Shown piece after piece: positions 14,699 through 18,705 of a stretch of 64,000 nt of DNA. A program made the translations under genes and the position numbers. Location: the NCBI GenBank assembly GCA_023666665.1, contig JAMPBN010000001.1, positions 705,284 through 769,283 on the forward strand. Reading direction: 5' to 3'. The DNA is from Prevotella sp. (GTDB lineage: Bacteria > Bacteroidota > Bacteroidia > Bacteroidales > Muribaculaceae). The notes under the pieces were generated by a model, which saw only the letters and a program-made list of their open reading frames with translations, was not told where the DNA came from and did not search any database. The first letter of the stretch is position 1; every line of letters starts with the position of its first letter.

Positions 14699-15864
14699 TG
14701 AGGTTTGTTTTTTTGTCAAATTTTTTAAATCCACATCAGTATCCGCTGGCGTGCGAGCTTTATCGCCTGACCGAGGGGAAATTCCGTTTTGTGGAAACAA
14801 TGAAGATGCCTGACGTGATGCATAAAAGCGGTTACCCTGACTATGACAATCTCCCCTGGCTGATCAGAGCCTGGGAATCGCCTGAAGCCAACGACGAGGC
14901 TATGCGACTTGCAGCGGAAGCCCAAACCATGATGTATGGCGCGGTTGATATACCTCATATTTTGGATATGCGCACGCGAGCTAAACGCCTCACGTTTGTA
15001 TACGCCGAGCGTTCGCTCAAACGCGGATGGATTAATGCGTTATCGCCCAACGTTTTGAACTCAACAATGGAATATTGGCGATATTCGCATAATACTCCTG
15101 TGTATTTTCTCGGCGCCAGTGCTTTTGCAGCCGCCGATAACTGGAAGCGCGGCATGTTTCGCAACCGTTGCTTCCGTTGGGGCTATTTCCCAACTACGGC
15201 AGGGGCAGAGAATGAGGAATATAACTTTTCATGCTTCAAGGATACAGAAAGGTTCCGCTTGATGAGTGTTTGCCGTATGCTTGACTGGAAACAACCCGTA
15301 ATGTATGTGCGAGCCGCCAAAGCACTGAAGGAGGCGAAGATTCCTTTCGTACTTGATATGTTTGGCACCGGTTATATGCTCACGGATGTTAAAAAGGAAA
15401 TTGAGAGATTGGGATTGGAGAAAGAAGTCATTGTTCACGGAAGCACTCCAAACGAACGGATTCACCGCGAAATGCAGGGACATCACTGCCTACTCTTTGC
15501 CTCAAACAAGCGTGAGGGCTGGGGAGCGGTGGTCAACGAAGCTATGGGCAACGGTTGTGTGGTCATTGGCAGCTCAAAGATTGGGTCTGTTCCATATCTG
15601 ATTGAACACGGTGTTACCGGGCTTATTTTTCGAGACAGCGACCAAAGTGACCTCAACAATAAAGTGATTGATCTGGGTCGAAACCTTGCAAGGGCTGAGC
15701 GAATCGCACGCACAGCACGCCGCCAGATGCAGTCAACGTGGAGCCCCGAGGAAGCGGCACATCGCCTCTTGGAACTCGCTGACGCTCTCTCTATGGGAAA
15801 GCCCACTCCATTTGCTTTCGGACCCTGTTCTCGCGCCCCTTATCTCAACGACAACTGGATTTGA
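14698..15864 (+). CDS. Family 4 glycosyltransferase (GT-B)
   Basis: This 388-residue protein carries the GT-4 C-terminal block LLFASNKREGWGAVVNEAMG, with the E-x7-E spacing, and GTGYMLTDVKKEIERLG. The N-terminal half is unusual, lacking the common glycine loop, and opens with RFVFLSNFLNPHQYPLACEL. I chose ATG 14698, which overlaps the polymerase stop as TGATG; a TTG one codon earlier is less likely. The stop overlaps the next start in the same way, suggesting translational coupling. Specificity is unknown. Confidence 0.87.
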   Translation: MRFVFLSNFLNPHQYPLACELYRLTEGKFRFVETMKMPDVMHKSGYPDYDNLPWLIRAWESPEANDEAMRLAAEAQTMMYGAVDIPHILDMRTRAKRLTFVYAERSLKRGWINALSPNVLNSTMEYWRYSHNTPVYFLGASAFAAADNWKRGMFRNRCFRWGYFPTTAGAENEEYNFSCFKDTERFRLMSVCRMLDWKQPVMYVRAAKALKEAKIPFVLDMFGTGYMLTDVKKEIERLGLEKEVIVHGSTPNERIHREMQGHHCLLFASNKREGWGAVVNEAMGNGCVVIGSSKIGSVPYLIEHGVTGLIFRDSDQSDLNNKVIDLGRNLARAERIARTARRQMQSTWSPEEAAHRLLELADALSMGKPTPFAFGPCSRAPYLNDNWI

Positions 15865-17009
15865 TGAAACGACTGCTGTTTTATTTGACTCGATACCCCG
15901 GAGTCGGGGGCATTGAGCGTGTTACTTCACTAATTGTCTCCGGTCTCTCAGCTGACTATGATTGCACTGTGGTTTCCCATCTGTCGGACTTCACGTTGGG
16001 AAAGGTCCCCGAGGGAATACGACACATTCAACTTCCGGAGGCTGCTTATGACTCGCCAACAAATCGTGAGTTTCTCAATCAATTGCTGGGCAACAATCAA
16101 TTTGATCTGGTTATTTATCAAGACAGTTATGCCCCATCGGAGCGAATGCTGACTGATTGTTGCCGACTCGCCGGGGTGCCGCTGGTAGTCTGCGAGCATA
16201 ATTCCCCTCTTTTTGTTGAAAACAAGCGTTTTCTGGAGCCATGGTATGCCTCGCCGCGCAGTGTTATGCGCCGTGTTCTCCACCCCTGGCTGATGAATCG
16301 CGAGCGTAAGCGTAAACGCTTGTTATTGGATTCGTGCAGCAAATACGTATTGCTTTCAGAGCGTTTTATTCCTGACTTCGCGCGGATTGCCGGTATAGAG
16401 CCCAAACACCACAAGCTCACTGCAATCAACAATCCCATTTTACCCCCCCCCATTTCAAATCGCTCATTATCAGAATATTGCAAAAGGAAAGAGATTCTTT
16501 ATGTTGGCCGCCTCGTCAGCGAAAAGCGCGTCAACCTCATTCTAAATATTTGGCAACGCATCTGCAATGTTCTGCCCGATTGGCAGCTCACCATTGTTGG
16601 CGATGGGCCTGAGCGGCAACGGTTGGAGCAACAAGCAGCTACAATACCCCGAGTGGCATTTGAGGGCTTTCAGAAACCGGATGAATATTATCGCCGTGCC
16701 TGTATGATGTTGATGACATCCAAATTTGAGGGCTGGGGCATGACACTGGTCGAGGCCATGCAGCATGGGTGCGTACCCATAGCCATAAATACTTTTTCAT
16801 CGCTTGCCGACATAATTGACCCCGGAATAAACGGTTTGATAATCTCTCCACGCGAAAATTTGGATAGCGTTGCCGACCGCGTGCAAGCGCTTGCCCGCAA
16901 TCCCGAGCGCATTGCCGTTATGTCAGAAGCCGCTCGCCTCAAGTCCAAACAGTTTGAACTAAATAATATCATTAAAGACTGGAAGTCGCTAATTGAAGCG
17001 AATTGTTGA
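15864..17009 (+). CDS. Family 4 glycosyltransferase (GT-B) with C9 tract
   Basis: This 381-residue GT-B enzyme has the N-terminal loop YPGVGGIERVTSLIVSGL, IVGDGPERQRLEQ in the donor domain, and SKFEGWGMTLVEAMQHG (E-x7-E). It starts at an ATG overlapping the preceding stop (TGATG). A run of nine C at 16443-16451 encodes P194-P196 in the linker between the two Rossmann domains. Contraction or expansion by one base shifts frame there and removes the donor domain. It is therefore a good candidate for on/off phase variation. Specificity is unknown. Confidence 0.88.
   Translation: MKRLLFYLTRYPGVGGIERVTSLIVSGLSADYDCTVVSHLSDFTLGKVPEGIRHIQLPEAAYDSPTNREFLNQLLGNNQFDLVIYQDSYAPSERMLTDCCRLAGVPLVVCEHNSPLFVENKRFLEPWYASPRSVMRRVLHPWLMNRERKRKRLLLDSCSKYVLLSERFIPDFARIAGIEPKHHKLTAINNPILPPPISNRSLSEYCKRKEILYVGRLVSEKRVNLILNIWQRICNVLPDWQLTIVGDGPERQRLEQQAATIPRVAFEGFQKPDEYYRRACMMLMTSKFEGWGMTLVEAMQHGCVPIAINTFSSLADIIDPGINGLIISPRENLDSVADRVQALARNPERIAVMSEAARLKSKQFELNNIIKDWKSLIEANC
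16443..16451. repeat. C9 homopolymer in glycosyltransferase gene
   Basis: Nine consecutive C form codons CCC CCC CCC, which are residues 194-196. With C8 I read a stop about 35 codons later, and with C10 about 55-60 codons later, in both cases before the donor-binding domain is complete. Confidence 0.9.
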
Positions 17010-18705
17010 AATCAACGTGTCGGCCAATGTGGGGTCGACGGGGAGAATAGCCGAGGAAATCGGGCGGCTGGCAGCCGACAATGGTTGGGAGCCGTGGTTG
17101 GTTTATGGGCGTACGTGTCGAAACTCGCAGCTGCAGACGCTGCGCGTCGGGTCGGATTGGGAAGTTAGGCTCCACGGCCTCGAAAGCCGTCTGCTCGACA
17201 ATCACGGTCTCGGTTCGCGAGGTGCCACCCGCCGCCTCATTTCCAGCCTGGATGAGCTGAAGCCCGACCTGGTGCATCTGCATAACATCCACGGCTACTA
17301 CCTCAACTATCCGCAGCTATTCCGCTGGCTGCGCCGCTGGGGCGGCCCGGTGGTGTGGACTCTCCATGATATTTGGCCTATCACCGGCCATTGCGCCTAT
17401 TTCGGCGTTGATGAATGCCCAAAGTGGCGTACCGGCTGCGGCCACTGCCCGCGACTTCGCACCTATCCGGCCTCTATGCTTGCCGACCGCTCCGCCGCCA
17501 ACTGGCAACTCAAACGCGAACTCTTCACCTCTCTACCGAATCTGACTCTCGTGCCTGTCTCCAACTGGCTCGCCGGATTGCTCGCTGAAAGTTTTCTGAA
17601 AGACGTTCCCCGCCAAGTTATACATAATGGCGTTGACTGCAATATTTTCACTTCCAATATGGATGGATGGGGTTTAAGACGTCCCACACTGCCGCAATAT
17701 ATTCTTGGCATTGCCAACGTTTGGGAGGAACGCAAGGGGTTGCCCGACTTTTTCAAACTCCGCACCATACTCCCTGCCGACATCTTCATCAAACTCGTTG
17801 GTCTGACGCCGGAGAAAATCAAGTCTCTGCCCAAAGGAATCGAAGGAATAACTCGCACGAACTCAACAGCCGAACTTGCCGAGCTCTATGCGGGAGCACT
17901 CGCTTTGGTTAACCCAACGTATGAAGATAACTTCCCTACGATCAATATCGAGGCTCTCGCGTGCAGCACTCCGGTCATTACCTACCGCACCGGCGGATCG
18001 CCGGAGGCAGTCGACGAGAAAACCGGCATCGTCGTTGACCGGGGCGATGTCCAAGCGCTCGCCGATGCGATTATAAAGCTCTATAGTCAAAACCTCGCCG
18101 AGATGAAACGACAATGTCGTGAAAGAGCCATTAAACTATTCGACAAAAATGAGCGCTATCGCGAATATATTGACCTCTATAAAATGTTAACAACTTTTAA
18201 CGGGGGGGGGTATTTGATAGCCGCAGCAAACGTCTGGACTCAGGAAAAAGGATTTGATGACATTATTCAGCTCCGCAATTTGCTTCCACGGGAGCAACTT
18301 ATCGTTATGGTTGGATTAACACGGCAACAAATCGCTGCACTACCGAAAGGAATCATCGGATTGGAGCGCACCGGCTCGCCGCATGAACTCGCAGAACTTT
18401 ACGCCGGGGCCGATGCGCTGATTAACCCCACCTGGGGCGATAACTTCCCGACGGTCAATATTGAGGCACTCGCGTGCGGAACTCCGGTCATTACCTACCG
18501 AACCGGAGGCTCTCCGGAGGCAGTCGACGAAAGAACCGGTATCATCGTTGACCGGGGTGATGTCCAAGCGCTCGCCGAAGGCATCAAGCGCGTCCGCGCG
18601 CTCAACCCCACCGATTGTCGTGCCCGCGCAGTAGCTCTTTTCAACGCCTCCAACCAATACCGCGAATACCTCAACCTCTACAACCTCCTATCACCTAAAA
18701 CCTGA
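16993..18705 (+). CDS. Family 4 glycosyltransferase with tandemly duplicated donor domain
   Basis: The protein is 570 residues, against about 400 for the family. The N-terminus (IVEINVSANVGSTGRIAEEI) and LHNIHGYYLNYP are typical of a Bacteroides GT-4 subgroup. The C-terminal Rossmann domain occurs twice, at about residues 236-395 and 407-567. Shared blocks are NFPT(I/V)NIEALAC, TPVITYRTGGSPEAVDE and DRGDVQALA. A G9 run at 18202-18210 lies exactly at the junction; G8 or G10 would give a 407- or 421-residue protein with one complete donor domain. The start is TTG 16993: the codon before it is TAA and no ATG is nearby. It overlaps the preceding gene by 17 bp. Confidence 0.85.
   Translation: MKRIVEINVSANVGSTGRIAEEIGRLAADNGWEPWLVYGRTCRNSQLQTLRVGSDWEVRLHGLESRLLDNHGLGSRGATRRLISSLDELKPDLVHLHNIHGYYLNYPQLFRWLRRWGGPVVWTLHDIWPITGHCAYFGVDECPKWRTGCGHCPRLRTYPASMLADRSAANWQLKRELFTSLPNLTLVPVSNWLAGLLAESFLKDVPRQVIHNGVDCNIFTSNMDGWGLRRPTLPQYILGIANVWEERKGLPDFFKLRTILPADIFIKLVGLTPEKIKSLPKGIEGITRTNSTAELAELYAGALALVNPTYEDNFPTINIEALACSTPVITYRTGGSPEAVDEKTGIVVDRGDVQALADAIIKLYSQNLAEMKRQCRERAIKLFDKNERYREYIDLYKMLTTFNGGGYLIAAANVWTQEKGFDDIIQLRNLLPREQLIVMVGLTRQQIAALPKGIIGLERTGSPHELAELYAGADALINPTWGDNFPTVNIEALACGTPVITYRTGGSPEAVDERTGIIVDRGDVQALAEGIKRVRALNPTDCRARAVALFNASNQYREYLNLYNLLSPKT
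17890..18600. repeat. Tandem intragenic duplication of a donor-domain segment
   Basis: DNA at about 17890-18100 closely resembles DNA at about 18390-18600. Identical stretches cover TCCGGTCATTACCTACCG and GATGTCCAAGCGCTCGCCGA. The spacing is about 500 bp. The protein similarity extends further, over about 160 residues per copy, so the duplication unit is a whole domain. Confidence 0.9.
18202..18210. repeat. G9 homopolymer at domain junction
   Basis: Nine consecutive G encode GGG between the two donor-domain copies. G8 reads GGG GGG GGT ATT TGA, and G10 reaches a TGA about 15 codons after the tract. Both leave the first, complete glycosyltransferase intact. Confidence 0.9.

Follow-up and report, generated by a model that had tools for sequence, protein, structure and literature searches.

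The stretch of DNA analyzed here, which we call the window, is 64 kb long and is part of a 1.27 Mb contig in a genome of 2.16 Mb. It includes a polysaccharide locus of approximately 25 kb that encodes an acyltransferase, a GT2 glycosyltransferase, a Wzy-like protein, three GT4 glycosyltransferases, a Polysacc_synt_2 protein, an epimerase, and a UDP-GlcNAc 2-epimerase. One of the GT4 genes, at 16993-18705, thus has the surface-glycan neighbors expected of a contingency locus. It is organized as follows:

16993-18705, + strand: GT4 glycosyltransferase ORF, 570 codons open from a TTG start, 570 aa in the G9 state
16993-17676, + strand: N (acceptor-side) domain, residues 1-228, with PF13439 at residues 16-216, delimited in the AlphaFold2 model
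17677-18201, + strand: first C (donor) domain, CA, residues 229-403, delimited by Pfam, homolog alignment, and AlphaFold2
18202-18210, + strand: G9 tract, read GGG GGG GGG (Gly404-406), the putative frame switch
18211-18702, + strand: second C (donor) domain, CB, residues 407-570, without an N domain of its own; stop codon at 18703-18705

The start codon is TTG, and the homologs align at MKRIVEIN. Pfam assigns the product to the GT4/GT-B glycosyltransferases (E values 6.7e-39 and 1.1e-12), with a single N domain (PF13439) and two C-domain matches, PF13692 and PF00534, each of which covers two stretches. In an AlphaFold2 model built from 26 sequences (mean pLDDT 84.7, pTM 0.72), residues 407-566 form another complete beta/alpha domain, predicted with moderate confidence despite an alignment that is shallow over CB; the linker at residues 403-405 has a pLDDT below 50. 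When the model was searched with Foldseek, the best PDB matches were GT4 enzymes, BshA (3mbo) being the top one. Enzymes of the BshA/PglA/MshA type (PDB 3mbo, 8dqd, 3c48) resemble the N domain and each of the C domains in fold and motifs, but the known members have one C domain, whereas the G9-state protein has two. An earlier note on this DNA had claimed that two donor domains are joined at the G9 tract; the ORF check, Pfam, and the AlphaFold2 model all confirm this, and the joint is exactly there.

We recomputed the product for each tract length and found that G8 gives 407 aa (ending GGGI), G9 gives 570 aa, and G10 gives 421 aa. The G8 and G10 products match the approximately 400 aa size of all relatives found and, unlike the 570-aa G9 form, have a single donor domain at that size; the claim that either change yields a normal-sized enzyme ending just past the first domain was therefore correct. 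The end of CA coincides with the natural C terminus of the homologs. Because these stop within a few residues of position 403, the G9 tract lies where a complete enzyme naturally ends. Right after the tract, CB begins at the first strand of the C domain, and it continues for 164 open codons to terminate at the end point of the homologs. The junction stretch that would be diagnostic of the fused G9-state protein is GGGYLIAAANVW.

We then compared CA and CB with each other. They are 59% identical over 165 aa and are sisters in a tree of 74 C domains (support 99/94). Between residues 296 and 310 of CA, CB shares 12 of 15 residues, yet only 1 of these 12 uses the same codon; at residues 311-355, 40 of 45 match, 30 of them with the same codon. 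The features concerned are:

17923-18057, + strand: conversion-like patch in CA (residues 311-355), 82-91% identical to CB at the nucleotide level, falling to 49-62% in the flanks
18436-18570, + strand: counterpart patch in CB, paired with 17923-18057
17965-17967, + strand: codon AGC for Ser325 in CA, alignment column 112, in the ACGTP motif

The patch probably reflects a short gene conversion that came later than the split between the paralogs, and it may itself cause the grouping of CA and CB as sisters in the tree. Outside of it, synonymous sites between CA and CB are saturated, so that a recent local duplication of the C domain, which had been implied earlier, is rejected, and CB is derived instead from an older paralog. 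The acidic motif DNFPTxNIE (D-x7-E) and the lysine of the KG motif are found in CA and CB alike, and we take them to be the EX7E and donor-binding positions of GT4 enzymes. The position of Ser325 in CA is occupied by glycine in 72 of the 72 other C domains compared, CB included.

The two patches raise the alternative that CB is a silent cassette, donating sequence to CA by gene conversion and so varying the donor domain over evolutionary time. The sharp bounds of the patch, next to a block with one identical codon in 12, would be expected of such a cassette. A single patch, however, represents one event, no comparable patch is present in the three pairs of TupA halves described below, and a cassette would need neither the in-frame position of CB nor a G-tract joint. 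We consider this reading improbable, and it is compatible with a translational switch at the tract.

Is the two-C-domain form found in other organisms? Among 60 relatives, 397 family genomes, and 44 loci from GTDB genomes, we found no two-C-domain GT4 in any relative. The glycosyltransferase family itself is common among the relatives examined, each with one C domain, and the idea of a conserved two-C-domain family was rejected on that basis. The 75 ORFs extracted included three partial ones, shorter than 200 aa, and a 636-aa ORF in which the two-C signature did not show. No G tract was found at the same place in the homologs. Two patterns for GT4 genes in which a C domain follows a G tract, searched in 225 and 397 genomes (the latter pattern being G8 and T followed by the C-domain start of this GT4 family), returned this locus and two apparent chance matches. 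The genus mate G007 has a glycosyltransferase identical to that of Muribaculaceae bacterium IMSAGC_006 (rows L006 and L119), and on this ground we assign the window's genome to Muribaculaceae.

The layout, as opposed to the gene, does recur. We compared the protein segments flanking 132 tracts, a set that is not a random sample, with each other, and found that genes of TupA-like ATP-grasp proteins (PF14305) share the layout of the GT4 gene. Three TupA genes have in common a complete enzyme, a G8-9 tract at its 3' end, and the C-terminal half of a paralog. In the first (G007:C34, L271), a G9 links a complete TupA of approximately 294 aa, in frame, to the C-terminal half of another TupA, and the two together make a frame of 446 codons. 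In the second (G018:C32, L274), the complete TupA meets a stop 2 codons past the G9 (HTLRGGVFS), and the C-terminal half, of 137 codons, lies in the other frame. In the third (G135:C49, L277), the complete TupA is followed by G8 and a stop, again with the C-terminal half in another frame. A TupA pattern search of 397 genomes matched these three genes only, and the reversed control matched none. The three loci are spread over three genera of Muribaculaceae, one fused and two out of frame; both frame states are seen across genera at these analogous loci, though not at the GT4 locus itself. The paired TupA halves are only 34-50% identical, and each spare half therefore came from a paralog. In both the GT4 and the TupA cases, the spare half is presumably the nucleotide-binding side of the fold. 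The self-comparison also picked out tandem paralogs and repeat proteins (L057, L183, and L248), and we set these aside as natural neighbors or internal repeats.

These loci bear on the account that we rank next after a translational switch, namely an accidental fusion, in which two tandem paralogous glycosyltransferase genes lost everything from the end of the first to the middle of the second, perhaps by recombination at G tracts. The tract would then be a scar, and CB an orphan C domain that is in frame by chance. Several observations would fit: the two-C form is unique to one genome, CA and CB are old paralogs, as expected of the remnant of a neighboring gene, tandem TupA genes are present in the G007 locus, and it is hard to see what an unpaired C domain would contribute to catalysis in a GT-B enzyme. 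Against this stand the precision of the layout in four loci and two enzyme families, and the fact that the C-terminal halves are intact even when out of frame. On balance we find an accident unlikely. With the layout also present, in both frame states, in an unrelated capsule enzyme of related bacteria, a switch of protein architecture that has arisen repeatedly seems a better reading than a single chance event.

Other genes in Muribaculaceae show further frame states. In one genus mate, an acyltransferase is split by G9 (L268, G009:C24) and a hexapeptide acetyltransferase by G11 (L164, G009:C7); both are apparently off states. In a type I S subunit (G018:C18, L241/L275), an in-frame G9 separates the two recognition domains, and a second G9 lies further upstream. 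These frame states point to slippage as the likely working principle, as read from differences between species and not from switching within one clone. We also observed that T is the next base after all 19 exact G9 runs in G017 and all 14 in G018, which is far from neutral.

Long runs of G or C are in excess in the genome of the window. Across the whole genome there are 29 runs of at least 8 and 16 of at least 9, the exact counts being 20 of 7, 13 of 8, and 13 of 9. In a 180 kb sample of the same genome there are 155 runs of 5, 21 of 6, 2 of 7, and none longer; the decay extrapolated from this sample predicts approximately 0.7 runs of at least 9 genome-wide, versus the 16 observed. The window has no runs of 7 or 8 and three of 9, all in polysaccharide genes, and 3 of the genome's 16 runs of at least 9 fall in the 25 kb locus (post hoc binomial 8e-4). 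Besides the tract in the GT4 gene, these are:

16443-16451, + strand: C9 tract, in frame, at the boundary between the N and C domains of the preceding GT4 gene (15861-17009)
1294-1302, + strand: G9 tract, in frame, within the ORF of a membrane protein (675-1685) that is acyltransferase-like by eye and gave no match in NCBIfam

In a dinucleotide shuffle of the window, runs of G7 or longer were not unusual (9 matches vs 6.7 expected), but this null is outweighed by the genome's own run-length spectrum. The tract in the GT4 gene is longer than the genome background predicts, and a one-base change in it alters the product. Elsewhere in the window's genome, an acyltransferase gene (L037) has a G9 in frame, whereas the acyltransferase of G009 (L268) is split by its G9. 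At another locus (L071, G000:C28), an out-of-frame G10 at locus position 1758 lies between an OmpA-like domain and an ORF that, as we read it, resembles a lipoprotein signal sequence.

Homopolymers are the usual site of indel errors, and the true allele could in principle be G8 or G10, in which case the fused protein would not exist. The other long tracts in the locus, at 1294 and 16443, are however also in frame at nine, and even an error of sequencing or assembly at the G9 would leave the orphan CB behind a G tract in place, as well as the TupA parallels. We regard such an error as extremely unlikely.

The immediate surroundings of the tract raise the possibility of a different role for it:

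18187-18201, + strand: TTAAC-N5-TTAAC abutting the G run, the sole copy in the 64-kb window on either strand

Among the 132 tracts of the non-random set, many G8-G10 runs of the family fall between genes and have fixed sequence contexts. In 14 of the 132, TTAAC-N5-TTAAC precedes the run at a distance of 0-6 bp. Promoter-like TAnnTTTG boxes are most frequent 18-20 bp past the run, and these arrangements lie upstream of ORFs for secreted proteins. The recurrent element reads TTAAC-N5-TTAAC, 2-6 bp, G8-10, TAAT, and TAnnTTTG at 18-20 bp, with instances at L046, L063, L166, L174, L216, L222, L223, L228, L233, L235, L238, L243, and others; it is possibly a class of phase-variable promoters. A second context consists of G8-11, seven bases starting with TA, and a small inverted repeat like YTGA-NNN-TCAR at +7; its core, YTG(A/T)-N4-CAR exactly 7 bp after the run, was found at 10 tracts (instances include L044, L052, L152, L154, L155, L179, L180, L252, and L277). 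Such fixed contexts suggest that some G runs in the family, at the least, serve a purpose other than slippage.

Because a TTAAC pair is present at the junction, the G9 may derive from, or still act as, a DNA element of this sort, such as a promoter or protein-binding site, and the reading frame through it would then be incidental. At the GT4 junction, however, the pair abuts the G9, with a spacer of 0 instead of 2-6, and the -7-like TAnnTTTG box is absent from the right place; the TupA junctions, moreover, are without the TTAAC pair. A DNA element that happens to be translated thus seems to us quite improbable.

We also asked how the locus relates to known systems. Poly-G/C contingency loci are classical in surface-glycan genes of Campylobacter, Helicobacter, and Neisseria. 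The tract type and the gene class are the same here, but those loci switch on and off, whereas here, going by the sequence, each frame would apparently encode an intact enzyme. The GT4 gene, with its tract near the 3' end and the enzyme complete before it, is closer to the C-terminal phase variation of H. canadensis, in which a poly-G near the 3' end changes the frame so as to alter or extend the C terminus and can merge coding regions, as at HCAN_0660/HCAN_0661 (Snyder et al. 2010, PMC2823697). In H. canadensis, however, the merged ORFs are hypothetical and the 82 aa appended are of unknown nature, whereas the GT4 gene would append a complete paralogous donor domain; its host belongs to a different phylum. 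In the HsdS subunit of NgoAV in N. gonorrhoeae, a G homopolymer determines whether the protein is truncated or full-length, and both forms are functional, with different specificity (PMC6789123). Like the GT4 product, HsdS is a modular protein with an internal G homopolymer, but it is a DNA-specificity subunit and not a glycan enzyme; the S subunit in G018 (L241) is the closer sequence-level parallel to NgoAV within Muribaculaceae. A 2025 review describes phase variation in gut Bacteroidales as DNA inversions (PMC11868660). Our literature search found nothing on poly-G phase variation in Muribaculaceae or poly-G slippage in gut Bacteroidales, and a spare paralogous donor domain on a Bacteroidales glycan enzyme was absent from the literature searched. 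The switching logic is known from H. canadensis and NgoAV, and the variant with a paralogous donor domain appears to be new.

The best single account, toward which we lean slightly, is that the G9 acts as a translational switch of C-terminal architecture; it ranks first because the independent TupA cases show both frame states. Under this model, the G9 would be a contingency tract that is prone to slippage, located at the 3' end of a capsule or exopolysaccharide GT4 gene that is already complete at that point. A length shift of one base would bring a stop a few codons on and give an ordinary N-CA enzyme of 407 or 421 aa, while at G9, or at other lengths of the same frame, the ribosome would continue into CB and give N-CA-CB. 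Cells within one clone would carry either form. The CB tail would most likely compete with CA for the N domain, or hinder the N domain, and so weaken or alter a single glycan step. We infer natural slippage of the tract, selection for retaining CB, and an effect of the tail on the working of the enzyme; that the donor sugar changes between the forms is a guess.

The position of the tract at the natural C terminus, the intact CB, the excess of G runs of at least 9, the TupA loci, the genus-level off states, and the published precedents in H. canadensis and NgoAV support the switch. Against it, nine Gs is rather short for a tract to slip rapidly, and the two-C-domain GT4 is found in one genome only, with one genome per species compared. 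The proposal of an architecture switch made in the earlier note is thus upheld in part: the frames do give a standard or a two-C enzyme, and the layout recurs in TupA genes, but slippage at the locus itself, and the difference in activity or donor choice that the note proposed, are putative. Slippage could also take place during expression, with the polymerase or the ribosome slipping on the G9 and both proteins being made in every cell, whatever the genomic length. Long G runs can induce such slippage, and recoding at contingency loci has reportedly been seen in Neisseria, but nothing specific to it was found at the GT4 locus. We hold this to be very improbable as the explanation, and it is compatible with the switch model.

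A wider and more tentative proposal, possible in our view but doubtful, is that Muribaculaceae generally switch the architecture of capsule enzymes by poly-G tracts at domain junctions, with a spare, nucleotide-binding C-terminal half from a paralog attached by slippage, and so vary substrate choice or activity between cells. The GT4 locus and the three TupA loci are ready test objects. If the switch model is true, slippage would alter the domain make-up of an enzyme rather than switch the enzyme off. If the tracts slip, dominant gut commensals could diversify their capsules by a second and much simpler route, which would bear on phage escape and immune recognition.
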